NCBI GenBank assembly: GCA_903908555.1
Contig: CAIVSG010000171.1
Coordinates: 1 to 47,689, forward strand
Source of the DNA: an uncultured Chlorobiaceae bacterium
GTDB taxonomy: Bacteria; Bacteroidota; Chlorobiia; Chlorobiales; Chlorobiaceae
Direction of reading: 5' to 3'
DNA length: 47,689 nt
Part shown: in pieces, positions 2,705 through 26,277 of the stretch
How positions within the stretch are numbered: the stretch's first letter is position 1
Layout: each line of letters starts with the position of its first letter
Translations under genes and position numbers: made by a program
The notes under the pieces: generated by a model
Database searches by the model: none
What the model was told of the DNA's origin: nothing
What the model saw: the letters and a program-made list of their open reading frames with translations, nothing else

Positions 2705-5041
2705 ATGAAATCATATAGTGGCTCTGCAGATGTAGAGCATGAGAGTGATTCTTTTATTTTGTTCAATAGCGGCAACGGTGAATGCAAGCTGGCTGAGGAG
2801 GAGCTGCAGCGGTTGAATCGTGCCCTTCTGGCAACCAACAGTTGCAATCAGGCATTGATTGATACCGAAACGGAGATGGAACTGCTGCAAAAGATCTGCA
2901 GCATCATCGTTGAAACCGGTGGGTACCGGATGGCATGGGTCGGTTATGCTGAGGAGGACAAGGGAAAAAGCATACGTCCGGTCGCTCAGGCAGGTTTTGA
3001 GGACGGGTACCTTGAAGCACTTTTGATATCCTGGGCAGATGACCAGTATGGCCACGGACCTGCAGGAAGTGCAATTCGCACCGGGGAGGCATGCTCCACT
3101 CTTAATATCCAGGAAGACCCGCAGTTTGAACTGTGGCGTGATGAAGCGATAGGGCGCGGGTATGCGTCTATTTACAGTGTACCCTTGAGAGTGGATGAGA
3201 GGGTGCTGGGCGCATTAACCATGTACGCGGATATTCCCGGTGCCTTCAATGCAAAGGAGAGGGTACTGCTTAAGGCGCTCGGGGACAATCTGGCGTATGG
3301 GATCAAGACGTTGCGAAGTCGTGTGGCGCGAGAGGAGGCTGAAAGATTGCTTAAACAAAGCGAGGAGCGGTTTAGAAAACTGTTTGAAAACCATTCGGCA
3401 ACCTTGATGCTTATCGACCCGAATAGTGGTAATATTATTGACGTGAATCAAGCTGCTGCGAATTTTTACGGGTGGCCGATTGAAACACTCCGGTTGATGC
3501 AGATACAGGATATCAATACGCTTGCTCCTGATAGAGTTATCGATGAAATGGCAAAATGCAGATCTTCGAAGCAAACCCGGTTTACCTTCAGCCATCGGAG
3601 AGCAAATGGTTCAACCCGTGATGTTGAGGTATCAAGCAGCAAAATTGAAATTGCAGGCAAAGACCTGCTTTACAGCATTATTCATGATGTTACTGAAAGA
3701 CATCGGTATGAACAGCTCAATGCGTTCAGGCTTCGGATACTCCAGTTGGCAGAGAGCTCTGCGATAGATGAACTGCTGACGGCAACGCTTGATGAGGCGG
3801 AAAGATTAACGGGAAGTTCAATCGGTTGTGTTTTTTTTGTAGCGGAAGATCAAAAGAGCCTGGTGCTTCAGGCCGTATCAACCAATACCCTTGAACATAA
3901 GTGGCAGAGTGAAGGAACGGGCCATCACTATACGCTGGACAAGGCCGGTGTATGGGCTGATGCGGTACGGGAGCGAAAAGCGGTTATCCATAATGATTAT
4001 ATCCCGTTGGAAGATTGCAAAGGAGTGTTTGAGGACTATGCTGAAATAAAGCGCGAACTGGTTATTCCTGTAACCCGTGATGAAAAATTAGTTGCAATTA
4101 TGGGGGTGGGAAACAAGCTTACGGATTATGAGGATAACGATATTGAGTGGGTAGAGATATTAGCCAATCAAGTGTGGGATATCGTGGCCAAAAAGATCGC
4201 TGAGGAAGAGAAGAAAAAACTTGCCGCACACTTACAGCACTCAACAAAAATGGAGGCGATCGGACAGCTTGCTGCTGGAATTGCTCATGAAATAAACAAT
4301 CCCCTCAATTTTATTACGCTCAATGAATATAACCTCATTGAAGATTTTAAGGATCTTCATGAAATCCTGGATTATTATCGCCGGATAGTTGCCAAAGTTG
4401 AAGGTATTGCCGCTGTTTCTGAAGAGATAGTGCAACTCCATGAAAAAGAGAAGAGTATAGACATTGATGAGTTACTCAAGGAGATTCCGAAAACTCTTGA
4501 AGCCTCAAAAAATGGAGTTGAGCGCATCAAAAACATCACCCAAAGCATGCGGAACTTCTCTCACAAAAACACTCAGAATGCCCTACGCCCGCTTGATATC
4601 AATAAGGCTGTTCAGGATAGCCTGACCATCACAAAGAGTGAGTGCCTCTACATAGCTACTATTGAAACAACGCTTGAAAATGTCCCGCAAGTAAACGGCA
4701 ATATATCGCAGATCAATCAGGTCTTACTGAACCTGATCATTAACAGTGTGCATGCTATAAAGGCACAAAACAGAAACTCTCCGGGCAGCATAATGATTAA
4801 AACATGGGCTACCGGGAAACATGTCTATTGCTCTGTGTCCGATGACGGTGAGGGAGTGCCTGAGGAGATCAAAGAACATATTTTTGAACCCTTTTTCACA
4901 ACCAAGGTACCGGGGAAAGGCACCGGACTCGGGTTGAGTATTTCTTACGACATCATTGTGCACAAACATGACGGAACGCTCTCCTGTGAGTGTCCAAAGA
5001 GCGGTGGAACTGTTTTTACACTCTCACTGCCGGTAAAATAA
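2705..5041 (+). CDS. Sensor histidine kinase (GAF-PAS-GAF-HisKA-HATPase)
   Basis: GAF-like N-terminus, PAS segment ([38 protein letters not shown]), second GAF, H-box [15 protein letters not shown]-boxes [23 protein letters not shown] and [10 protein letters not shown]. Confidence 0.9.
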
Positions 5042-5311: not shown

Positions 5312-7348
5312 ATGCAGAAACCTGAAGCGCAAGCTACAGTCCTTGTGGTTGATGACAGTACAACTATACGTGCCCTCGTATCCAGTATCGTCAAGAAGTC
5401 CGGCCATACGACCATGATGGCCGATGATGGCAACAGCTGCATTGAGATCATAAAGACCCATCAGATAGATCTTCTGCTTCTCGATGTTCATATGCCGGGA
5501 AAAACCGGTATTGAAGTGCTCTCGTATCTTCGTGAACATCATTTGAATATCCCGGTCATCATGATTTCGGGTTCTGCGGATATTGAAGAGGCGGTCAAGG
5601 CTCTGAAAATGGGAGCTTATGACTTTTTACTAAAACCGGTTAATCCAGACAAGCTTAACGTCACGGTAAAAAACGCCCTCGCAGAATCGGAGCTCCGCAA
5701 AAACCTTAAACTCTTTTCGTCGGCTATCTCCCAAAATCCGCTGTCTATTATCATAACTGACACAAAGGGAATTATTCAGTATACCAATGAGGCGTTTACC
5801 ACTATTTCAGGATATAGCCAACAAGAGGTACTTGGCCGGAATATGAATACACTGAGATCCGGAAAACATTCGCGGGCGTTTTATAAAGATCTTTGGGAGA
5901 CCATTACGTCAGGAAAAACCTGGAGTGGCGAAATCATAAATAAAAAGAAAAATGGTGAGCTATTCTTTGAGCTGGCGACTATAAGCCCGATCACTGGCAA
6001 CAACTCCAAAATCTCTCACTTCATAGGTATCAAGCAGGATATTTCTGAGCAGAAAAAGAAACAGGTTGAGCTTGCTTTGAGCGAAATGAGGTTTCATGAT
6101 ATGGCTAATCTGCTTCCTCAGACGATTTTTGAAATGAACATTGAAGGTCGGATCATCTACACTAATCGTATGGGTTTTGAGACGTTCGGGTATACTAAGG
6201 AGGATTTTGAAAACGGTGTGCAAGCCTTGATGCTCTTTGCACCGGAAGAGTACGAAAAAGTCGGGTTAAACATGAAAAAACGCTTGGCGGACCTTCCTTT
6301 TGACAATCATGAATACACCGGTAGAAAAAAAGATGGAACCTTGTTTCCGATACTTGTTTATACTTCAAGGATTATCGAAAACGAAACGCTTGTGGGCATC
6401 AGGGGGATTGTGCTTGACATCAGCGAACGCAAAGAGGCTGAAAAACAGCTGCAGCAACTCAACAGGACGCTGGAACAAAGGGTTGAGGAGCGCACCCGGG
6501 ATCTTGTTCAAAGCCAGCAACAAGTTATCCAGCAGGAAAAGCTTGCATCCATCGGTCAACTCGCTGCAGGGATTGCACACGAGATCAATAATCCCCTTAA
6601 TTTTATCAAGATAAATTTTGTAACCCAGCAGGGAAACATCGCTGACATTCTCTCTATCCTGAATGAGTATCGCGCGTTCACAAAAAAAATTGAGACCAAC
6701 ACCTTGTTTTCTTCCGAGTTGCAGAAGTTACGATCAATAGAGCACGACATGGAGCTTGATACGCTGCTTGCTGATATTCCTCAAATCTTTGCCGAGTCAC
6801 AGGGAGGGTTTGAACGAATTACAACCATTATCAACAGCATGCGGAACTTTTCTTACAAGCACGCTCAGGATGAGAAGGTTCTTTTTGATATAAACAAAGG
6901 AATCCGCGACACGCTTATCATTTCCCGTAATGAGTACCGGTATTGTGCGGATATTGTAACCGACCTTAAAGAGTTGCCGCCCGTGCCTTGTAACCCGGAG
7001 CAGATGAATCAGGTTTTTCTCAACCTGATTATCAACGGCGCACACGCTATCGCATCTCAACAACGAGCAACGAATGGAAAAATAAAAATTGCGACATGGA
7101 TAGACAGTACTTCAGTCTATTGCTCTATTGCTGATGATGGGCCGGGTATTGCGCTTGAAGTTCAAAAACACATTTTTGAGCCTTTTTTTACCACAAAAAA
7201 ACCTGGAATCGGAACAGGATTGGGGCTCAGCATCTCCTATGACATTATTGTGCATAAGCATCACGGAACACTTACCGTTGATTGTCCTCATGCGGGGGGA
7301 ACCGTTTTTACGATCACGCTTCCCTTAAGGATCAATAAAGAACACTGA
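5312..7348 (+). CDS. Hybrid sensor kinase: N-terminal REC, two PAS, HisKA-HATPase
   Basis: VLVVDDSTTIRALV...LLLLDVHMPGKTGIEVL...LLKPVNP (REC); PAS/PAC segments; [36 protein letters not shown]. Confidence 0.92.
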   Translation: MQKPEAQATVLVVDDSTTIRALVSSIVKKSGHTTMMADDGNSCIEIIKTHQIDLLLLDVHMPGKTGIEVLSYLREHHLNIPVIMISGSADIEEAVKALKMGAYDFLLKPVNPDKLNVTVKNALAESELRKNLKLFSSAISQNPLSIIITDTKGIIQYTNEAFTTISGYSQQEVLGRNMNTLRSGKHSRAFYKDLWETITSGKTWSGEIINKKKNGELFFELATISPITGNNSKISHFIGIKQDISEQKKKQVELALSEMRFHDMANLLPQTIFEMNIEGRIIYTNRMGFETFGYTKEDFENGVQALMLFAPEEYEKVGLNMKKRLADLPFDNHEYTGRKKDGTLFPILVYTSRIIENETLVGIRGIVLDISERKEAEKQLQQLNRTLEQRVEERTRDLVQSQQQVIQQEKLASIGQLAAGIAHEINNPLNFIKINFVTQQGNIADILSILNEYRAFTKKIETNTLFSSELQKLRSIEHDMELDTLLADIPQIFAESQGGFERITTIINSMRNFSYKHAQDEKVLFDINKGIRDTLIISRNEYRYCADIVTDLKELPPVPCNPEQMNQVFLNLIINGAHAIASQQRATNGKIKIATWIDSTSVYCSIADDGPGIALEVQKHIFEPFFTTKKPGIGTGLGLSISYDIIVHKHHGTLTVDCPHAGGTVFTITLPLRINKEH

Positions 7349-7350
7349 CC

Positions 7351-8997
7351 ATGACCAACTTTAGTGAGATTACTATTCTCTTTGTTGATGATGAATCCTT
7401 TATTCTCAGTTCAATAAACAGGTTTCTCCGTAAAGAGCCGTATAAGAAACTCTTTGCCGAAAACGGCATGGATGCGCTTGAGCTTATCAGACAAAATAAT
7501 GTCTCTCTTGTTGTTTCTGATCTTCGAATGCCGGAAATGAACGGTCTGGAACTGATCAGTGCAGTGAAAAAGCAAAATCCAGACATACTTCGTCTTATAC
7601 TGAGCGGTTCTCAGGATATCGACCCGATTATTGAATCCATCAATACCGGAGAAGTGTTCCGCTTTATTCCAAAACCTGTTGACCCACCGGCTTTCAAAGA
7701 AATTCTGAATGATGCAATTGAGTACTATTGTTTGAGAACTGAACGGGAAAAGCTTTTTAATGAGCTGTCAATAAAAAATGAGGAGCTGACCAGTGCAAAT
7801 AATGAGCTCCTCGTTATGGCAAAAAAATTGCAGCGTAGCGAGCAGGAGTTGCGCTCAATGACCGATGCTGCGCATGATGCGGTTTTTATGCTTAATGATG
7901 CTGGGTGTATCATCTATCGTAACAGTGCAGCTGAAAATATGTTTGGATTCAGCCGGGAGCAATACGACAAACAGAATTTTGTTGACCTTATCTCCAGAGA
8001 TTCAGCCACGTTTGATATTCATGGGATATGCCAGATATCTTCGGGAGATATCCCCAGTATTGATGAGAAAATGGTCCACCAGATTGCAGGCATGAGTAAA
8101 GATGGCAGATCTATCCCTCTTGAGATTTCTAAAGGGTGTGTTCTGATTAATGAGATACCGCACACTGTTATGATCGCCCGCGATATCTCCTCAAGGGTTG
8201 CAGCGGAACGGAGCAGGGTGCGCTTTGAAGTGATGCAGAAGGAGTTTGAATCGGAGATTGAAAAAAAAATGCTTCAAAGTCCTGTACCCGATACTCTGGA
8301 GGGAGCGTCGATCGCGCGGATGATGGTGCCTTCCGGCCATCTTGACGGGGATTTTGCCGATTTTATTATTTTTGACAGTCATCACGCCGACATTCTTATC
8401 GGCGATGTCATGGGTCATGGTATTCAATCTGCCCTGGTTGGTGCCGGCATAAAATCACTCTTTCTGAAAGTGCTGGCACAGACTAAGTACCCGTACAGTG
8501 CACTTCCCGCAGTGGAGGAGATCGTTAGCGGAGTACATGAGCGCTGTATTAATGAACTTATAGGGCTCAGCACCTTTGCGACACTGCTTTTTATGCGGCT
8601 GGATCTTGAAGCAGGAGTTATTTCAGTTGTCGATTGCGGCCATCCACCTGTGATTCATTTTCATGCCCGCACAGGAACCTGCTCGATGCTCAAGGGGGAG
8701 AACCTGCCTATTGGCTTGATTGAACATCAGGAGTATCGCGCAAACTCCTATTCGATCGGTGAGAATGATATTCTTGTGCTCTTTTCGGATGGAATTACAG
8801 AGTGCACGGCACCGGACAAGACGATGTTCGGCGATCAGCAAGTGTTGGATATTATTGAAAAGCATCATGCATTGCCCCCACCGGCGATAATAGAAAAAAT
8901 TAAAGAAGCTCTTGCTCTTTTTTCCGGAAAAGAGACTTATGATGACGATCTCTCCTGTATTGTCATCCGTATAGGCCATACCGGAACGAAATATTAA
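7351..8997 (+). CDS. Response regulator with PAS and PP2C/SpoIIE-type (RsbU-like) serine phosphatase domain
   Basis: REC (LFVDDESF...LVVSDLRMPEMNGLELI...FIPKPVDP), PAS, then DGDFADFIIFDSHHADILIGDVMGHGIQSALVGAGIKSLF and FSDGITECTAPDKTMFGDQ. Confidence 0.92.
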   Translation: MTNFSEITILFVDDESFILSSINRFLRKEPYKKLFAENGMDALELIRQNNVSLVVSDLRMPEMNGLELISAVKKQNPDILRLILSGSQDIDPIIESINTGEVFRFIPKPVDPPAFKEILNDAIEYYCLRTEREKLFNELSIKNEELTSANNELLVMAKKLQRSEQELRSMTDAAHDAVFMLNDAGCIIYRNSAAENMFGFSREQYDKQNFVDLISRDSATFDIHGICQISSGDIPSIDEKMVHQIAGMSKDGRSIPLEISKGCVLINEIPHTVMIARDISSRVAAERSRVRFEVMQKEFESEIEKKMLQSPVPDTLEGASIARMMVPSGHLDGDFADFIIFDSHHADILIGDVMGHGIQSALVGAGIKSLFLKVLAQTKYPYSALPAVEEIVSGVHERCINELIGLSTFATLLFMRLDLEAGVISVVDCGHPPVIHFHARTGTCSMLKGENLPIGLIEHQEYRANSYSIGENDILVLFSDGITECTAPDKTMFGDQQVLDIIEKHHALPPPAIIEKIKEALALFSGKETYDDDLSCIVIRIGHTGTKY

Positions 8998-9015: not shown

Positions 9016-9759
9016 ATGAAAGCAGAACTCCTTGGTGTCGCTTTTGAACATGCAACGATGGCTACAGCTGTGGCGCAGATCCTGGATGCTGCGAGGCGAG
9101 GGCAGAAAGGGATCATCGTTACTCCCAATGTTGACCATATCGTTATGCTTCAGGACGATGCTGCTATGCGGAGAATCTACGGGGAGGCTCTTTTTCGGTA
9201 TGCCGATGGAATGCCTCTTGTGTGGCTCAGCAGAATCAAGAAGAACCCCCTTCCGGAACGGGTGGCGGGTTCTGACCTGCTTATAGCTCTCTGTAAAGAA
9301 GCTGCCGGAACCGGTCTGAATATCTATTTTCTTGGTGGAAATCCCGGTATTGCCGAACAGGCTGCTGAGAAATTGCGTAACCAATTTGCCGGATTGAAGA
9401 TAGTGGGAACCTGGTGTCCTCCTTTCGGGTTTGAAAATGATCGAGATGAAAACGAGCGGATCATAAACGATATAAACTCCCGGAGTGTCGATATTCTGTT
9501 TGTAGGGGTCGGCGCGCCTAAACAGGAGAAATGGGCAGATGCGCATATTGATCGTCTTAAGGTTGGGCCTATTTTGTGCGTTGGCGCTTCTTTTGATTTT
9601 GCCGCGGGGAAAATAAAACGTGCTCCTTTATGGATTCAGCGTCTTGGTTTTGAATGGGCATGGCGACTAGGAAGCGAACCGGGGCGGCTCTGGAGGCGTT
9701 ATCTGGTGCAGGACAGCCGGTTTCTCCCTTTGGCATTGAAAGAGATTTTTAATTCTTAA
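9016..9759 (+). CDS. WecG/TagA/CpsF family glycosyltransferase
   Basis: VTPNVDHIVMLQDD, YADGMPLVWLSR, RVAGSDLL, FLGGNPGIAEQAAEKL, FVGVGAPKQEKWADAH, GVGASFDFAAGKIKRAPLWIQRLGFEWAWRL. Confidence 0.93.
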   Translation: MKAELLGVAFEHATMATAVAQILDAARRGQKGIIVTPNVDHIVMLQDDAAMRRIYGEALFRYADGMPLVWLSRIKKNPLPERVAGSDLLIALCKEAAGTGLNIYFLGGNPGIAEQAAEKLRNQFAGLKIVGTWCPPFGFENDRDENERIINDINSRSVDILFVGVGAPKQEKWADAHIDRLKVGPILCVGASFDFAAGKIKRAPLWIQRLGFEWAWRLGSEPGRLWRRYLVQDSRFLPLALKEIFNS

Positions 9760-9789: not shown

Positions 9790-10509
9790 ATGGAACTTGA
9801 TCCGACGGTGCGAAAAGAGCTGATACGGACCATAAGCAGCTCAATCAATCCCCGATTCCGATACCGACGGCGCATGAAAGTGCAGGCATGGGAAACTACA
9901 ATCATGTTTTCCTATCTGCTGAAAAGAGTGCTTGATTCGGCTGTGTCGTTACTTGCCCTCGTTATGCTGCTTCCTCTTTTTATTTTTACCGCTCTTGCTA
10001 TATGGATCGAAAACCCTGGGCCAGTGTTTTATGTTCAAATGCGTGTGGGCCTGAATGGCAAACATTTCAGGTTTTATAAATTCCGGTCCATGGTTATGAA
10101 TGCAGAGAAAATCAAACAGGAACTTGTGGCTTTTAATGAGTCGGGTGCTGGAGTGATTTTTAAAATGAAACAAGATCCGAGGATTACACGGGTGGGGAAA
10201 ATCATCCGTAAATTCAGTATTGATGAACTGCCTCAACTGATCAATGTGCTTAAGGGGGATATGAGCCTTGTCGGGCCAAGACCGCCTCTGCCCGGCGAAG
10301 TTGCGGAGTACACTCTGGATGAACGTAAGCGGCTGCATATTATCCCGGGCATAACCTGCCTGTGGCAGGTTAGCGGCAGAAGTGATATTCCCTTCACCGA
10401 TCAGGTACGACTCGACATGCAGTATATACAAAGTGCAAGTTTTCTAAATGACGTTATTCTGCTTTTAAAAACCATTCCTGCCGTTCTGACTGGCAGAGGA
10501 GCTTATTAA
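9790..10509 (+). CDS. Polyprenyl-phosphate sugar phosphotransferase (bacterial sugar transferase family), catalytic motifs intact
   Basis: LLKRVLDSAVSLLALVMLLPLF, KFRSMVMNAE, FSIDELPQLINVLKGDMSLVGPRPPLPGEV, PGITCLWQVSGRSDIPF. Confidence 0.94.
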   Translation: MELDPTVRKELIRTISSSINPRFRYRRRMKVQAWETTIMFSYLLKRVLDSAVSLLALVMLLPLFIFTALAIWIENPGPVFYVQMRVGLNGKHFRFYKFRSMVMNAEKIKQELVAFNESGAGVIFKMKQDPRITRVGKIIRKFSIDELPQLINVLKGDMSLVGPRPPLPGEVAEYTLDERKRLHIIPGITCLWQVSGRSDIPFTDQVRLDMQYIQSASFLNDVILLLKTIPAVLTGRGAY

Positions 10510-10519
10510 ACAGAACATT

Positions 10520-10855
10520 ATGATCTTTCATGTAGACGCGTCAACCGGTAAAACACTTGGCATTGTTGATTTAAGCGGAAGGCTGGATGCGGCAAACAGC
10601 AGTGAGCTTTTGAAATCTTTTGCAGTGTGGCAGCAGCAAGCCAATATGTTTGTTTTTAACTGCACCAGGCTTGACATGATCGATAGCAGCGGACTGGGTG
10701 CTATAGTAGCCTGCCTGCGCAAAGCGCTTGAAAAAAACGGGGAGTTGAAACTGGCCGCTCTGAATCAGAAAGTTTCTATGGTATTTGAACTTACAAAGGC
10801 GAAAAAACTTTTTTCAATTTTTCCGGATACCGGCAGTGCGATACAATCATTCTGA
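10520..10855 (+). CDS. STAS-domain anti-anti-sigma factor (RsbV/SpoIIAA-like)
   Basis: DLSGRLDAANS...FNCTRLDMIDSSGLGAIVACLRKA. Confidence 0.93.
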   Translation: MIFHVDASTGKTLGIVDLSGRLDAANSSELLKSFAVWQQQANMFVFNCTRLDMIDSSGLGAIVACLRKALEKNGELKLAALNQKVSMVFELTKAKKLFSIFPDTGSAIQSF

Positions 10856-10884
10856 AACAGTTGACTGGAATTAAACACTGCTCC

Positions 10885-12282
10885 ATGAAAACGCTCATTA
10901 TCATCAAAGAGAAGGACTATGCATGGCTGCGACCGATTTTTACGGGTATTCATCCTTTGCTGGTTCCTATATGCAATAAACCTTTCATAGAGTTTCTTAT
11001 CGATTTTGCAATCCTTGCTGGAAGCGATGCCTTACGGATTTTGAGCGACGGGCCGCTCAGCGATGTTGAAGAATACTGCGATAACGGGAGCCGCTGGGGT
11101 ATTGCGATAAGCTATGGGAGTATTAAGAGCAGCGACGAGACTCTGTTGATCATGGAAAAAAACCATCGGTACTGCGCCGGTGAGAGAGTCCTCTTGATGA
11201 ACGGCTTTGTATTTATCGAGTATGACAAACAGCATAACTATACAGCGCTGTTTGCTGAGCTCCCTGATGGCGAGATCCTCGGCTGCAATAAAGGCAGCCT
11301 CAGTTTGAGAGGAACTCCCGGCGAGAGACCAAAAGTTGCAGGAGCACTCCCTTTATCGCTTGTGGAACTTGACTCTCTTGAGGTTTATTACCGTCTCTCG
11401 ATGGAAATTCTGAGCTTCGGTGAATCGCCATACGTCATACCCGGCTATAGCAACGAGGCTTACTGCCATATTGGACGAAATGTGGTCATAAGCAAAAGTG
11501 CTGAAATAAGAAAGCCTGTCATTATCGGTAATAATGTACAGATCATGGCGGACTCAATCATAGGGCCACTGGCAGTTATCGGCAGCAATGTCATTATTGA
11601 CAAGGCAAGCACCGTGACTGATAGTATAGTTTTAGAAAAAACCTATATCGGAGAACAGCTTGAAGTGCAAAACAGGATTGCTGCCGGAAATATTCTGATT
11701 GAACCGGAAAGTGGAATTTCCATTGCCATGGATGACCCTCATCTGTTAACCGGCATAAAAAAATCAGGGTCGGCAGAAATACTGTTTCAGTCGGTTGTTC
11801 ACCGTCTCTTCGCCTTGTTTTTGATAACCGTGCTCCTTATCCCTTTTCTTCTTCTGTCACCAATTCTGAAGTTTCAGCGAAAATGGAAAAAGAGTACCGG
11901 CAGCTATTATATAAATGATGCAGGAAAAACCCTGGCATTGACGACAACATCCATTAATCGTCAGAGTCTTCCTGGCTCAATTGCGGCAGCACTCTCTCTC
12001 GACCGTTTCGGCTTGCTTTTCAATGTTCTCAGCGGGCAGCTTGCCATTATCGGCAGCACTCCCATAGCGGCAAAAACTGATAACAGTGTTCCTCTCCTGG
12101 AAATGGGTTCATGGTACAAGGCGGGTGTGTTCAGTTACGCTGAAGCTGAGGAGTGGCCGGCAAATGGAGATGAGAGGGCAATAGTTGAACGTTATTTTGC
12201 AGTTCACGGTAATCCCCTGCTTGATATTGCCATGACGATAAAAGCATTTTTCAACCTGATTCACGAAATACATACACCATGA
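10885..12282 (+). CDS. Degenerate NDP-sugar nucleotidyltransferase-like + left-handed beta-helix + degenerate sugar-phosphotransferase-like fusion
   Basis: N-term WLRPIFTGIHPLLVPICNKPFIEFLI without GGxGTRL; hexapeptide-like repeats (VVISKSAEIRKPVIIGNNVQIMADSIIGPLAVIGSNVIIDKA); C-term HRLFALFLITVLLIPFLLLSP...FGLLFNVLSGQLAIIGSTPIA resembles the sugar transferase family; ATG at 10885 preferred over TTG 10861. Confidence 0.75.
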   Translation: MKTLIIIKEKDYAWLRPIFTGIHPLLVPICNKPFIEFLIDFAILAGSDALRILSDGPLSDVEEYCDNGSRWGIAISYGSIKSSDETLLIMEKNHRYCAGERVLLMNGFVFIEYDKQHNYTALFAELPDGEILGCNKGSLSLRGTPGERPKVAGALPLSLVELDSLEVYYRLSMEILSFGESPYVIPGYSNEAYCHIGRNVVISKSAEIRKPVIIGNNVQIMADSIIGPLAVIGSNVIIDKASTVTDSIVLEKTYIGEQLEVQNRIAAGNILIEPESGISIAMDDPHLLTGIKKSGSAEILFQSVVHRLFALFLITVLLIPFLLLSPILKFQRKWKKSTGSYYINDAGKTLALTTTSINRQSLPGSIAAALSLDRFGLLFNVLSGQLAIIGSTPIAAKTDNSVPLLEMGSWYKAGVFSYAEAEEWPANGDERAIVERYFAVHGNPLLDIAMTIKAFFNLIHEIHTP

Positions 12283-12626
12283 TTATCAAGGAAAATGTCT
12301 GTAACAACATCACGACCATCAACCTTTGGGGCACCCTTGATGCTACGACAGCTCCGACGTTGAGAAATTTCAAATCTGCGGCTGCACCGGCCGACCCTGT
12401 TGTGATCAATATGTCGGACGTTGATTTTCTTGACAGCAGCGGTCTTGGCGCTCTTGTTGGACTTACCAGAGAAAAAAGAGAACAGGGCGGAGAGGTAACT
12501 TTAGCATGCATGAACAACAAAGTCAGAAAAGTATTTGAGATCACACAGGTATACAGGCTGTTTGATATCTATGACGATGTTGAGGCCGCAACTATAAACG
12601 CTGAAAAAAAACAAACCCGCTTATGA
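12279..12626 (+). CDS. STAS-domain anti-anti-sigma factor (second copy)
   Basis: NLWGTLDATTAPTL...VDFLDSSGLGALVGLTREKREQGGEV; ATGA overlap with upstream gene. Confidence 0.93.
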   Translation: MIIKENVCNNITTINLWGTLDATTAPTLRNFKSAAAPADPVVINMSDVDFLDSSGLGALVGLTREKREQGGEVTLACMNNKVRKVFEITQVYRLFDIYDDVEAATINAEKKQTRL

Positions 12627-13060
12627 TCGCCATGATCACTCTGCCTGCAGAGATACGTTTCGTCAGGCTTGCTTCGCTTACGGCATTGAAGGTTGCGGAG
12701 GTATTTTCGGACTCACTCAATACAAAACAGAGTGACGAAGGTTTCTGCCATGCGTTTGAGCTTTCCGTCAGTGAGGCATTCACGAACTCAGTCCGTTATG
12801 CTGTTCCATCGGGAGAGGATACCATGATCACGCTGAGCTTCAGTTCGGATAACAATAAGCTTACAGCAAGTATCAGTGACAGTAACCCTCCTTTTAACCC
12901 TGACCCCACACCCGTGGATATATCCAGTTATCCGGAAAGAGGTTTTGGACTTTTACTGATTCGTCAACTTATGGATAGTGTGACCTATACAAGGGATAAT
13001 GGCACAAACAGGATTTCTTTGACCAAACAAACTGACAGCGCACATAATCAGAGCCTATAA
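12623..13060 (+). CDS. HATPase_c_2 anti-sigma factor-type serine kinase (RsbW/SpoIIAB-like)
   Basis: N-box ELSVSEAFTNSVRYA, G-box-like ISDSNPPF, ERGFGLLLIRQLMDSVTY; ATGA overlap with upstream STAS gene. Confidence 0.9.
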   Translation: MIAMITLPAEIRFVRLASLTALKVAEVFSDSLNTKQSDEGFCHAFELSVSEAFTNSVRYAVPSGEDTMITLSFSSDNNKLTASISDSNPPFNPDPTPVDISSYPERGFGLLLIRQLMDSVTYTRDNGTNRISLTKQTDSAHNQSL

Positions 13061-13064
13061 CATA

Positions 13065-14360
13065 ATGAAGAATAAAAAGTTAAAGGTGCTGTTGATTATT
13101 GAGCAGTGTAATCCTGAATGGGCGTCGGTACCATTGGTAGGCTATTGCTTTTATGACTATATCAGCCAACTCGCTGAGACGACTCTTGTCACGCATGAAA
13201 GAAACCGGGCTGCCCTGGAAAAAACTCACCCGAATAGAGATATTACCTACATTTGTGAAAGTGCTTTTATCAAGAAATACTATGCTCTTGCTGAAAAGTT
13301 AAGTAAGCTGAAGGATAGAGTCATCTGGCCTTTATACCATATGCTGACATACCCCGTTTATGGGGAGTTTAATCGTCAGGTATACTCCAGGTTTAAGGAA
13401 TCTATTCTTGAAGGCCATTATGATATTGTTCACGCGATGACACCAATGATGCCTCGATATCCTGTAAAGGCGATAAAGGCATGTACATCTACGCCATTTA
13501 TTCTTGGACCGGTAAATGGAGGGGTTCCTTTTCCAAAAGGTTTTCAAAAAGTGGCTCGACAGGAATTCTCTGATTTTAACTTTCTTCGATCAATCGGTCG
13601 ATTTATTATTCCCGGCTATCGGGAAACCTATACAAAAGCTGACTACATTCTTGCCGGCTCTACGTATACCATGAATCTGGTTAAAGAGCTCTTTGATATT
13701 AAAAATGAGAAGATTGAGTTATTTTACGAGAACGGAATCGGAAGTTCATTTTTGAAGACAGAAGAGAGCGTTTCCGAGAGTATAACAAAAGAGAGTGGAG
13801 TGATTAACCTTCTCTTTGTCGGGCGGCTGGTCCCTTATAAAGGAACAGACATGCTGATTGAGGCAATAAGCAGGCTGGAACTCTCCACCCGGAAGAAAAT
13901 TGTTCTTACGATCGTTGGTGATGGATCGGAACGAAAAGCTCTAGAACAACTGGTTGAAAAGCATAAGCTTACTGCAATAATTGCTTTTACAGGTTGGGTT
14001 GATCAGAAGGATACGCTCCAATACTATAGCAATTCCAATATTTTCTGCTTTCCTTCTATCCGTGAATTTGGCGGAGCTGTAGTTTTAGAGGCGATGGCCA
14101 ATGGCCTTCCTTGTATTGTGGTTAATAACGGCGGCATTGGTGAGTATGTTACTGAAGAAACCGGCTTTAGAATTAATCCGGAGTCCAGGGAATTTGTTGT
14201 TCGGGAATTAACGGTGTGTATAGAGAAACTAGTCACTAATCCATTGTTGCGCAAGACTATGTCAATTAAAGCTATTCAGCGGGTAAAAGAGTTTACTTGG
14301 AGTGCCAAAGCTGAAGCAATTGTTCGTATTTACAATAAACAATTAATACATCGGGTTTGA
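13065..14360 (+). CDS. Glycosyltransferase family 4
   Basis: LLFVGRLVPYKGTDMLIEAISRL, FPSIREFGGAVVLEAMANGLPCIVVNNGGIGEYV. Confidence 0.9.
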   Translation: MKNKKLKVLLIIEQCNPEWASVPLVGYCFYDYISQLAETTLVTHERNRAALEKTHPNRDITYICESAFIKKYYALAEKLSKLKDRVIWPLYHMLTYPVYGEFNRQVYSRFKESILEGHYDIVHAMTPMMPRYPVKAIKACTSTPFILGPVNGGVPFPKGFQKVARQEFSDFNFLRSIGRFIIPGYRETYTKADYILAGSTYTMNLVKELFDIKNEKIELFYENGIGSSFLKTEESVSESITKESGVINLLFVGRLVPYKGTDMLIEAISRLELSTRKKIVLTIVGDGSERKALEQLVEKHKLTAIIAFTGWVDQKDTLQYYSNSNIFCFPSIREFGGAVVLEAMANGLPCIVVNNGGIGEYVTEETGFRINPESREFVVRELTVCIEKLVTNPLLRKTMSIKAIQRVKEFTWSAKAEAIVRIYNKQLIHRV

Positions 14361-14428
14361 ATCGGCTCAGGTTTTATGTGCTTTTCAAATGTGTTCGGTA
14401 AACCCTCATTAACTTCCTGGGGCATCTT

Positions 14429-15403
14429 ATGGTATCTGTTGTTATTGTAAGTTACAATACACGTGACATTCTTCGTAACTGTCTGGATGCACTGTTTGAA
14501 CACGGCGGTGGAGTTGAAATGGAGGTTTTTGTCGTGGACAACAATTCCCATGATGGTTCTGCGGATATGGTAAAAACCGACTTCCCTTCTGTTTTTGTGA
14601 TTGCAAACAATCAGAATCTTGGGTTTGCCGCAGCAAACAATCAGGCTTTTGTTCTCGCCAAAGGGAATTATATAATCCTCCTCAATCCAGACGCCTATAT
14701 CAGACCGCTATCCATTCAGAACTGCATCAAATTCATGGACGAGACACCGAAATGTGGACTTTGCGGAGGAAAAATCATTTCGCCTGCTGGTACTATTGAA
14801 CCATCAGCAAGACGCTTTCCGACAGCTCTTTCCAAATTTCTAGCTCTTTCGGGATTGCGTGGAAAATTTCCGCAGTCCCGACTTTTAAATTACTATGAAT
14901 TTGGTGGGTTTGCTTATACCAAACCTCTGGAGGTGGACTGGGTGCCGGGCACCTTCACCATCGTTCGCAAAGAGATGCTTGATGAAATAGGTCCTTTCGA
15001 TGAAAGGTTTTATATCTATTACGAAGAGACCGATCTCTGTATGAGAGCAAAAAAGGCTGGATGGACAATCTATTTCATTCCGGATGCTGAAGTTACGCAC
15101 ATCGGCGGTGCCAGCAGCAAAACACGAAAAGACAAATCATTTGACAATAAAGCTGCTCAAGTGCTTATCTTCAGGATGCGCAGTGAATGGCTTTATTACC
15201 GTAAAAACAAGGGGGGGGCCGGGCTTCTTTCCAGTGCTGGAGTTGAATTACTCTGGTATGCAGCCCGGTTCACCAAAAACCTTCTCTTCCCATTTGGTGA
15301 TGCCGGAAATAAACGTTCAGCAGCTGTTTCGATCATCAAACAAATAGTGACTTCACTTCAGGACACAAAATTCGGTAGCTTTTCACCTCCAATACCATGG
15401 TAA
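14429..15403 (+). CDS. Glycosyltransferase family 2 (rhamnosyltransferase-like)
   Basis: VSVVIVSYNTRDILRNCLDAL, VDNNSHDGSADMV, LNPDAYI, VPGTFTIVRKEMLDEIGPFDERFYIYYEETDLCMRAKKAGW. Confidence 0.93.
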   Translation: MVSVVIVSYNTRDILRNCLDALFEHGGGVEMEVFVVDNNSHDGSADMVKTDFPSVFVIANNQNLGFAAANNQAFVLAKGNYIILLNPDAYIRPLSIQNCIKFMDETPKCGLCGGKIISPAGTIEPSARRFPTALSKFLALSGLRGKFPQSRLLNYYEFGGFAYTKPLEVDWVPGTFTIVRKEMLDEIGPFDERFYIYYEETDLCMRAKKAGWTIYFIPDAEVTHIGGASSKTRKDKSFDNKAAQVLIFRMRSEWLYYRKNKGGAGLLSSAGVELLWYAARFTKNLLFPFGDAGNKRSAAVSIIKQIVTSLQDTKFGSFSPPIPW

Positions 15404-15409
15404 AGCATC

Positions 15410-15922
15410 ATGAATCTTTTCCAAAACTTACGCGCTGATCTAGCGACTTATGAAGGAAAATGGGGCAGCCAAGGATTCTGGGTCATGATAGTCTATCGTT
15501 TTGGAAGGTGGCGCTACACTATCAAGAGCAGTTTAGTTCGTAAACCTTTTTCCCTGCTCTACAAACTACTTTACAAGATTGTTCAGATACTTACAGGTAT
15601 CGAACTTCCTTGTGAAGTTCCAGTTGGCAGAAATTTCAGAATTGACCATTTCGGGGATATCATTATCAGCGGATATGCAAGTTTCGGTGATAACTGCATT
15701 ATCCGAAACGGCGTCACCGTAGGATTAAAAAATATTTGTGAAAAAGCCGCACCGTGTTTCGGGAACAATATCAGCATTGGAGCTGGAGCAAAAATCCTTG
15801 GCAACATCTCAATCGGCAATAATGTTGATATCGGAGCCAATGCTGTAGTCCTGAAGCCAGTACCGGATAACTCCATTGCTGTTGGGATTCCGGCTAAAAT
15901 CATTACAAAAAGATCTGCTTAA
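15410..15922 (+). CDS. Serine acetyltransferase-like hexapeptide acyltransferase
   Basis: GRNFRIDHFGDIIISGYASFGDNCIIRNGVTVG..., GAGAKILGNISIGNNVDIGANAVVLKPVPDNSIAVGIPAK. Confidence 0.9.
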   Translation: MNLFQNLRADLATYEGKWGSQGFWVMIVYRFGRWRYTIKSSLVRKPFSLLYKLLYKIVQILTGIELPCEVPVGRNFRIDHFGDIIISGYASFGDNCIIRNGVTVGLKNICEKAAPCFGNNISIGAGAKILGNISIGNNVDIGANAVVLKPVPDNSIAVGIPAKIITKRSA

Positions 15923-15927
15923 TCAAC

Positions 15928-17070
15928 GTGCCGGATACCATGTACAAATTTACTGAATACATTACCTGTAATCCGATTTTTCACTATGACCGCGTGGTTA
16001 AAGCCACGGTAATGTTTTTAATTGCATCTTGTTTTGTGTTGCTGGCATCCTGCAGCAGCATTTCTCCAAAGTCTTCACGAGTCCCCACGACACCAGAAAA
16101 AGATTTTAAGACGGAACTCCCAATAAAAACACAGGAATTTGCTACCGCCCAGAAAATTTATGCACTATCCCCTCATGACAACTACCTATACCGACTTGGA
16201 CCCGGAGATTTAGTCAGTATTCAAGTGTGGCACAGGCCGGAGCTTTCACTGGAAAACATCGTCGTCTCCCCCGACGGAATCATTGCAATTCCCAGAATCG
16301 GAAGTCTCAACGTTATGAACCATACTCAAGAAGAAACACAAAGTATGATATCATCAAAACTTGAAAATCTCTATATAAAACCTGAAGTTACCGTCAGAGT
16401 TAATGAATTTCACAACAATAAGGCTTTTGTTCTCGGCCGTGTCAGTAAACCTGGTGTCATCAATTTTCCTGGAAAAGGAACGCTTCTGGAAGCACTTGCT
16501 CTTGCTGGCGGCCTTCCAACAGATCAAGCTAAAGAGAGCGCGCTAACCAAATGCGCCATTATCCGGGGCAATGACACCGTTATCTGGATCGACTTGCAGG
16601 ATTTACTCAAAAACGGCAATATGGCATTGAACTCTCCGATCAGAAACAATGATGTGATCTATATTCCTGAAGCTACTGATGACCTGGTTTATGTTATGGG
16701 TGAGGTCGTTACACCGGGTGCCATTCAAATGAGAGGCGGGATGAATGTCCTCAAAGCTATCATGCTGGCAGGAGGAATGAACAAACAGGCTAATCCGGAA
16801 AAGGTATTCGTCATCAGGCAACAGAGTCTTAGAGGCGATGTTGTCCAGATCGATCTGAAAAACCTGCTTGAACGCGGTGACTTCAGCCAGAACTTTGCGC
16901 TTTTACCGAATGACATTGTCTATATCAGTCCTAGTGGAATGTCAAAATTCAACTATGCGCTTGAAAAGCTGCTCCCAACGCTTAATGTTCTTTCTCTCGG
17001 CACAACCATCGAGCAGCAAATCTGGGGTAAGGGAAGTACTACGGTTGTCTCCCCCACTTTCTCGAAATAG
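15928..17070 (+). CDS. Polysaccharide export outer-membrane lipoprotein (Wza-like, Poly_export/SLBB)
   Basis: Lipobox FLIASCFVLLASC; YRLGPGDLVSIQVWHRPELS; SLBB-like repeats VLGRVSKPGVINFPGKGTLLEALALAGG and VMGEVVTPGAIQMRGGMNVLKAIMLAGG. True start may be internal, upstream of the lipobox. Confidence 0.92.
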   Translation: MPDTMYKFTEYITCNPIFHYDRVVKATVMFLIASCFVLLASCSSISPKSSRVPTTPEKDFKTELPIKTQEFATAQKIYALSPHDNYLYRLGPGDLVSIQVWHRPELSLENIVVSPDGIIAIPRIGSLNVMNHTQEETQSMISSKLENLYIKPEVTVRVNEFHNNKAFVLGRVSKPGVINFPGKGTLLEALALAGGLPTDQAKESALTKCAIIRGNDTVIWIDLQDLLKNGNMALNSPIRNNDVIYIPEATDDLVYVMGEVVTPGAIQMRGGMNVLKAIMLAGGMNKQANPEKVFVIRQQSLRGDVVQIDLKNLLERGDFSQNFALLPNDIVYISPSGMSKFNYALEKLLPTLNVLSLGTTIEQQIWGKGSTTVVSPTFSK

Positions 17071-24843: not shown

Positions 24844-26277
24844 ATGGGTGGCGCTCCCGGAAATATTTTAGTACCAATCGCTTTCCTGGCCTTTCCTCTT
24901 TTGGTCGTGGCTCTTTTTAAAAAGCTTGACCCTCGTAAGGCAATAGCAATAGCCTTTGTTTTTGGCTGGATGTTTTTACCGGTTGCCAACTACGATATCT
25001 TTCTCCTCCACAATACCAAAACAGCTATTATATGTCTCAGTATTTTGGGAGGTGCTTATCAATTTGACAAGAAAAGACTCTCGACATTCCAGTTCAACGC
25101 TGCTGATATCCCGATGCTCTTATGGTGCACTGCCCCTTTTTTTTCCTCGATTGCCAATGATCTTGGTGCTTATGACGGCCTTGCGTCAGTTTTGTCCCAA
25201 ACAGAACGATGGGGAATGCCCTACTACATTGCAAGAATTTATTTCAGCGATGAAGAGAGCATAAAAATTCTCGCTTATATCATTTTTATCGGAACACTTG
25301 TTTATGTCCCGTTCTGCTGGTACGAATTGATCATGAGCCCACAGTTGCACAGACTTACCTACGGTTTTCATCAAAGCGACTTCATTCAGACACTCAGACA
25401 AGGGGGTGGGTTCAGACCAATGGTCTATATGGAACACGGACTCATGACAGCAATGTGGATGGTACTCGGTGTGTTTTTTGGAATCTGGATGTTCCTCACT
25501 GGCATGCTTCCGAAAAACATCATGCACATACCATCCATCTACCTTCTTATACTGCTTATTGTCACCAACATCATGATGCGTTCGATGGGAGCTATTTCAC
25601 TTCTTATCATCGCTCTCCTCGTTGTTTATCTTTCAAATACAACGAAAACAACCTTTCTGGTTCTGATCCTTCTTTTTGTTCCTCATCTCTATATGTTCAC
25701 CAGAACAACCGGCATCTGGGATGGGCGAAATTTGTCTAACGCTATATCTGAAAAATATAGTAGTGATCGCTCGGGATCGCTGCAGTTCCGATTTGACAAT
25801 GAAACAATTCTGGTAGAAAAAGCACTGCAGGGCAGTTTTTTCGGGTGGGGAGGATACGGCCGCTCAAGAGTTTACGATGAAACAGGTAAAGATATCAGTG
25901 TTACTGACGGATTGTGGGTTATCACCTTTGGTGCAAACGGAATCTACGGGCTTATCGCTATGGTTGTCGCCATTCAATGGCCGACCGTGCTCTTTCTTTT
26001 GCGTGTCAAGCCAGAGCTATGGAAAACAACACGATGGGGTTCATCTTCGGTCATGGCCATCTTTCTCGGTATTTTTATGATTGATAATTTACTTAACTCT
26101 ATGATCAATCCGGTTTACATGCTTTGCAGCGGTTCACTTATCGGAGCACTTCTCAACTCATCAAAGATAGTTTCTGTCAATAGTGATACAGACCTTCTTG
26201 AAGTTGAAACAAAGCGGAAAATAGTTGGAACCCGTTTTATTCCAGCACCAAGCATGAAACCGTCGAGATTTATCTGA
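24844..26277 (+). CDS. O-antigen polymerase/ligase-like (Wzy-like) membrane protein
   Basis: Multiple TM helices, long hydrophilic segment, position in EPS operon; no strong single motif. Confidence 0.7.
   Translation: MGGAPGNILVPIAFLAFPLLVVALFKKLDPRKAIAIAFVFGWMFLPVANYDIFLLHNTKTAIICLSILGGAYQFDKKRLSTFQFNAADIPMLLWCTAPFFSSIANDLGAYDGLASVLSQTERWGMPYYIARIYFSDEESIKILAYIIFIGTLVYVPFCWYELIMSPQLHRLTYGFHQSDFIQTLRQGGGFRPMVYMEHGLMTAMWMVLGVFFGIWMFLTGMLPKNIMHIPSIYLLILLIVTNIMMRSMGAISLLIIALLVVYLSNTTKTTFLVLILLFVPHLYMFTRTTGIWDGRNLSNAISEKYSSDRSGSLQFRFDNETILVEKALQGSFFGWGGYGRSRVYDETGKDISVTDGLWVITFGANGIYGLIAMVVAIQWPTVLFLLRVKPELWKTTRWGSSSVMAIFLGIFMIDNLLNSMINPVYMLCSGSLIGALLNSSKIVSVNSDTDLLEVETKRKIVGTRFIPAPSMKPSRFI

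Follow-up and report, generated by a model that had tools for sequence, protein, structure and literature searches.

The 465-residue protein encoded between two STAS genes in a 47,689-nt contig from a Chlorobiaceae (green sulfur bacterial) metagenome-assembled genome (the window) is, on balance, probably a membrane-anchored, STAS-responsive regulatory subunit of an initiating phosphoglycosyl transferase (PGT), derived from a bifunctional fusion enzyme. The protein is homologous to nucleotidyltransferases (NTases) and to PGTs, has lost catalytic residues in both parts, is under purifying selection, occupies a syntenic locus, is co-inherited with a specific PGT and has intact relatives adjacent to STAS genes. 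Its open reading frame was found where the sequence-only reading had placed it (Table 1). The ATG at 10885 is kept across orthologues (MKT/MKS), and starting instead from the TTG at 10861 would lengthen the protein by 8 residues. A protein search of genome contigs with the single sequence gave no match to the pseudoenzyme; a search with an alignment as the query recovered 31 pseudoenzyme loci, in which the named relatives were Chlorobiaceae, Chlorobium and Chlorobaculum.

Table 1. Genes of the polysaccharide locus and modules of the double pseudoenzyme, with positions in the window
Feature	Position	Strand	Evidence
GAF/PAS histidine kinase, likely switch input	2705..5041	+	Pfam GAF, PAS, HisKA, HATPase_c
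REC-PAS histidine kinase, likely switch input	5312..7348	+	Pfam Response_reg, PAS, HATPase_c
REC-PAS-SpoIIE (PP2C) phosphatase, proposed STAS phosphatase	7351..8997	+	SpoIIE E 2.9e-40, Response_reg E 1.4e-20
WecG/TagA-type glycosyltransferase	9016..9759	+	Pfam E 1.9e-63
Intact monotopic PGT, proposed regulated enzyme	9790..10509	+	Bac_transf E 1.6e-66
STAS protein 1, conserved DSSG phospho-site	10520..10855	+	STAS E 1.1e-16; DSSG 10/10
Double pseudoenzyme, 465 aa	10885..12282	+	NTase, LbH, membrane helix and PGT-like modules
Truncated pseudo-nucleotidyltransferase module, residues 1-180	10885..11424	+	Fold match of AF2 model to PDB; catalytic Asp, PK lysine and GGxGTRL missing
HPLLVPICNKP segment, residues 23-33, retained NTase-like motif	10951..10983	+	Largely invariant across orthologues
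Left-handed beta-helix (LbH) module, residues 190-288	11452..11748	+	Pfam LbH_EIF2B/Hexapep; lowest dN, best-conserved module
Membrane helix, residues 296-330, invariant Pro320	11770..11874	+	AF2 helix; aligned with PGT membrane helix
Pseudo-PGT module, residues 333-465	11881..12279	+	Bac_transf E 1.3e-5; PglC by profile; collinear with intact fusions
Asp373-Arg374 replacing the catalytic Asp-Glu dyad	12001..12006	+	Glu position Arg 31/32, His 1/32
VFSYAEAExWP motif, residues 415-425, in place of the PGT PGIxxxWQxxGR segment	12127..12159	+	Conserved, orthologue alignments
STAS protein 2, conserved DSSG	12279..12626	+	STAS E 7.6e-20; DSSG 10/10; start overlaps pseudoenzyme stop
RsbW-like HATPase, proposed STAS kinase	12623..13060	+	HATPase_c_2 E 2.4e-22; N-box SEAFTNSVRY retained
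Same-cluster polysaccharide genes: two glycosyltransferases, hexapeptide protein, Poly_export/SLBB protein	13065..17070	+	Pfam; mostly syntenic

The modular architecture first proposed from the letters alone, namely an NTase-like N-terminus without GGxGTRL, a hexapeptide-like middle and a C-terminus resembling bacterial sugar transferases, was borne out by profile and structure searches. Pfam placed Hexapep and LbH_EIF2B at residues ~194-278 and Bac_transf at residues 353-458, the latter with a score (25.3 bits) slightly below the 27-bit cutoff. NCBIfam models matched weakly at 14-119 (MurU/RmlA) and also at 292-395 (HepC). Searching solved structures (hmmsearch, 10 orthologues) retrieved CugP (8x7s), eIF2B epsilon and PglC (8e37), the last spanning residues 358-454 (E 1.2e-4). 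A first AF2 model built from 10 alignment rows was poor (pLDDT 54) and was replaced by a 45-row model (mean pLDDT 84, pTM 0.62), which may be pulled towards the fold of intact relatives, as these are included in the alignment. The closest PDB folds to this model were CugP (E 1.4e-15), VTC1-KJC2, GMPPA/GMPPB and eIF2B, which assigns the protein to the NTase-LbH fold of PF00483. Likewise, the sub-gathering Pfam score, the PglC profile match and alignment to the fusions described below indicate that the pseudo-PGT module is homologous to PF02397 across the domain. Monotopic PGTs have a re-entrant membrane helix kinked by a proline; here, Pro320 in the predicted membrane helix is invariant in the pseudoenzyme alignment (A1), as is P62 in the PGT alignment (A2). 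Two orthologues (L029 10121-11395 and L028 5739-7079) are missing much of the segment around a predicted beta-hairpin (334-357), and this part of the pseudo-PGT module may therefore be dispensable.

None of the pseudoenzyme orthologues retains the GGxGTRL motif, the PK lysine or the catalytic Asp of NTases (PF00483), and ~70-100 internal residues of full-length relatives are absent from the NTase half, which is thus truncated as well as mutated. In the PGT-like module, the KFRxM and GPRP motifs of PF02397 are missing and the catalytic Glu of the dyad is replaced (Table 1), while its Asp is mostly retained (31/32 orthologues). The DE-to-DR change and the loss of both motifs had been noted in the single protein and proved to hold in the orthologue alignments, with Arg or, once, His at the Glu position. 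By contrast, the neighboring PGT and all 11 intact-PGT fusions have DE. As the same losses are kept across 32 orthologues, they are, judging from the alignment, fixed and not due to chance.

Close pseudoenzyme pairs had dN/dS values of 0.16 to 0.38, with dN low in all modules and at its minimum in the beta-helix. The reading frame was open in every orthologue aligned, and many residues are invariant. The absence of catalytic motifs from both halves might suggest a decaying pseudogene, but these values, the open frames and the invariant residues rule this out, and we give it practically no weight. New conserved motifs (HPLL..CNKP, DPHL and VFSYAEAExWP) occur at or near the old motif sites, as might be the case if one of the modules carried out another chemistry, using new invariant residues for, e.g., beta-helix acyl transfer or nucleotide-sugar hydrolysis. 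However, the NTase-LbH part is closest in fold to nucleotidyltransferases and to regulatory subunits of these enzymes, its NTase half has become shorter, and the searches run recognized no known catalytic signature, making a cryptic activity very improbable.

The position of the gene between two STAS genes and the presence of an intact PGT paralogue upstream were both confirmed by Pfam. The upstream PGT is a true member of the monotopic PGTs (PF02397), and KFRSM, DELP and GPRPP are invariant in its alignment. The ends of the pseudoenzyme and STAS2 genes, and of the STAS2 and RsbW genes, overlap in an operon-like manner. As far as sequence can tell, the locus contains a complete set of partner-switching components: STAS proteins with a phospho-Ser site, a HATPase kinase and a PP2C phosphatase. 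Of the 33 distinct Chlorobiaceae loci (some contigs appear under two L identifiers), 32 have the order PGT-STAS-pseudoenzyme-STAS-RsbW, and PGT, STAS, pseudoenzyme and RsbW follow the common order in all 33, the second STAS gene being uncalled in L052. A SpoIIE phosphatase gene was located upstream in nearly all Chlorobiaceae loci with sufficient flank. Additional STAS and/or RsbW genes were observed near the module in L043, L046, L052, L057 and L059.

The pseudoenzyme was present in 29 of the ~65 Chlorobiaceae genomes listed. In 29 genomes without it, the best PGT identity to the cognate PGT was 49%, compared with 72 to 92% in holders, and the cognate PGT was found in none of these 29. The cognate PGT also carries a strongly conserved N-terminal extension of ~40 amino acids (window 9790-9905; MELDPTVRKELI...KVxAWE), and non-cognate Chlorobiaceae PGTs align only from approximately residue 37 onward. 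From its sequence, the extension is a candidate docking segment. A conserved 477-amino-acid protein of the polysaccharide cluster (24844-26277), with homologues in L027 and L029, had no Pfam match.

The STAS, RsbW and SpoIIE proteins are all canonical and keep their catalytic motifs, and they could equally serve a sigma factor encoded elsewhere. STAS1/2 and RsbW would then control transcription of the polysaccharide genes, with the pseudoenzyme as a metabolic sensor or a passenger. We consider such a transcriptional switch quite unlikely, as the proteins of the locus that were scanned include no sigma factor, and purifying selection and fixed gene order are not expected of a passenger.

Searches of the GTDB phylum that includes the Chlorobiaceae, and of its classes, identified full-length relatives of ~560 to 610 amino acids in ~20 of 391 genomes, in another class of the phylum (families f13, f33, f39, f54 and f10). 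These are fusions of an NTase, an LbH, a membrane helix and a PGT. The hhalign alignment of the Chlorobiaceae family (A1) with the fusions (A5) had a Prob of 99.9 and an E of 5.6e-33 and ran collinearly through 414 columns, placing the DR of the pseudoenzyme on the DE of the fusions, and P0001 matched the f13 homologue along its length (E 7e-22). A STAS gene was located upstream of 18/18 intact or half-intact fusions examined and in f13. It is the adjacent gene or is separated from the fusion by one HATPase-like gene (f39 and part of f33), which was identified as HATPase_c_2 by Pfam in the single one scanned and gave weak profile hits in others. A SpoIIE phosphatase gene was near the fusions wherever flanks were long enough and was REC-fused in the two scanned. 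Three-module collinearity and a position downstream of STAS are thus common to the pseudoenzyme and the fusion family, and this gene- and alignment-level evidence traces the pseudoenzyme to NTase-LbH-PGT fusions, an ancestry that is a new finding of this analysis. An origin of its C-terminus by recent duplication of the neighboring PGT was rejected, as the hhalign match to that PGT was weak (Prob 30, E 5.5e-4) compared with that of the whole pseudoenzyme to the fusions. A tree uniting the pseudo-PGT and the neighboring PGT was, however, not formally rejected (p-AU 0.117).

Fusions differ in the state of their active sites. Both sites are intact in L092, L093, L095-L097 and L129-L132 and are kept in f33 and most f39 members (A[AS]GxGSRL..PKPMLP..GDG; xFRTM; DELP); L094 (f39) runs into masked bases and was excluded from motif scoring. 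In f54, the NTase is dead (PK to PA, GD to GN) and the PGT is intact. The f39 fusion in L133 (1501-3228) has likewise lost its NTase motifs (LSPGLDESLLPF, SGEC) and kept its PGT, apparently independently of f54 to judge by sequence, so that a dead NTase with a live PGT occurs in at least two lineages. Both modules are dead in f13 (L072/L073) and in the Chlorobiaceae. Clusters encoding a separate intact PGT were restricted to lineages with a dead fused PGT: all 33 distinct Chlorobiaceae loci and the two f13 loci have one, and none was found in f39, f33 or f54 loci. The separate PGTs of f13 and the Chlorobiaceae form one clade (100/98; 57% identity). The f13 and Chlorobiaceae pseudoenzymes also group together (82/95 and 79/83), on long branches, and the tree gave no support to a single clade uniting all NTase halves of the fusions (62/11); the two double-dead lineages may therefore have lost activity independently. 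A plasmid search returned distant NTases only. On a Streptomyces plasmid (L117, 5624-8505), a STAS gene overlaps the start of an NTase gene, possibly a separate STAS-NTase link.

The original suggestion of two degenerate modules between STAS genes held, and the modules are in addition ancient and under selection. The proposed role as a scaffold or regulatory receiver is strengthened by the near-invariant PGT/STAS/RsbW synteny, the all-or-none inheritance with a specific PGT and the intact relatives beside STAS and SpoIIE genes; its mechanism is something we infer. A purely constitutive scaffold would do no more than bring glycosyltransferases and the PGT together at the membrane, with STAS, RsbW and SpoIIE co-transcribed but acting on another target. 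The LbH is the best-conserved module and LbH domains usually oligomerize, and the membrane helix and PGT-like module are retained, all of which would suit such a scaffold. However, STAS adjacency is kept in every fusion family, even without a second STAS or a separate PGT, which points to a functional connection with STAS as such, and we regard the constitutive scaffold as unlikely.

A regulatory subunit responding to STAS accommodates these observations as follows. The ancestor would have been a fusion of a sugar-nucleotide-making nucleotidyltransferase, with its beta-helix, to a monotopic PGT, already beside a STAS/SpoIIE switch, and the fused protein may already have been the contact point of that switch. 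In the Chlorobiaceae and f13, both active sites would have died and catalysis would have passed to the separate, tightly co-inherited PGT, leaving the contact point as a membrane-anchored, probably oligomerizing regulatory subunit. The constant association of the fusion family is with STAS and not with catalysis, and a separate PGT is present where the fused PGT site has been lost, so that retention of the contact point while catalysis moved is the simplest reading. As related bacteria have a working fusion beside the same type of switch, the protein probably serves today as a regulatory subunit. Its helix and PGT-like module would place it beside the PGT, where it would read whether STAS1 and/or STAS2 is phosphorylated. 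These STAS proteins would be phosphorylated by the RsbW-like kinase and reset by the REC-PAS-SpoIIE phosphatase, so that two-component signals could exert post-translational control over the first committed step in making exopolysaccharide. In this scheme we infer every physical contact, whether control is by activation or by inhibition, and the specificity of the kinase and phosphatase. More tentatively, direct action of STAS proteins on a membrane-bound double pseudoenzyme that allosterically gates the initiating PGT might constitute a new class of signaling output.

Compared with known systems, the C-terminal module is homologous to monotopic PGTs (PglC, WbaP and EpsZ) and keeps a predicted membrane helix with an invariant proline but differs in lacking the Asp-Glu dyad, KFRxM and GPRP and in being fused to an NTase-LbH. 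The best fold matches of the NTase-LbH part include NTase-LbH enzymes (CugP, GMPP) and inactive regulatory relatives (GMPPA, KJC and eIF2B gamma). KJC is an NTase-LbH relative that works with a catalytic partner. GMPPA is described as lacking catalytic function and regulating its paralogue GMPPB (PMC11228364). While GMPPA and KJC act with a catalytic partner, co-inheritance with a PGT is what the genomes show for the pseudoenzyme. In contrast to CugP, GMPP, GMPPA and KJC, its NTase is truncated, and it is membrane-anchored, joined to a pseudo-PGT, bacterial and STAS-linked.

As in SypA/SypE of Vibrio fischeri and HmpUVW of Nostoc, STAS, a serine kinase and a phosphatase are tied here to a polysaccharide locus. 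Those switches have no identified STAS target (PMC8256260, PMC4517449), whereas here the gene flanked by the two STAS genes encodes a candidate target. In Myxococcus xanthus, the PGT EpsZ is activated through direct contact with EpsW, a single-domain response regulator (PMC12802240). By analogy, a signaling protein may also act post-translationally on the initiating PGT here, but in M. xanthus the response regulator itself contacts the PGT, and a pseudo-PGT or STAS protein is not described there (PMC12802240). The open-access literature searched for NTase-PGT fusions, pseudo-PGTs and STAS proteins with PGTs contained no description of the family; a PNAS survey of PGT fusions was outside this scope.

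These results bear on how polysaccharide synthesis is switched post-translationally and on the targets of SypA and HmpV, for which the pseudoenzyme offers a concrete candidate kind of target. The natural series from a working bifunctional enzyme to a double pseudoenzyme offers a way to separate the regulatory part from catalysis, and the locus provides a bacterial counterpart to dead nucleotidyltransferases turned regulators of the GMPPA/KJC type. If STAS proteins do act directly on the pseudoenzyme, other STAS switches linked to polysaccharides might work on targets of this kind, which have so far been missing.
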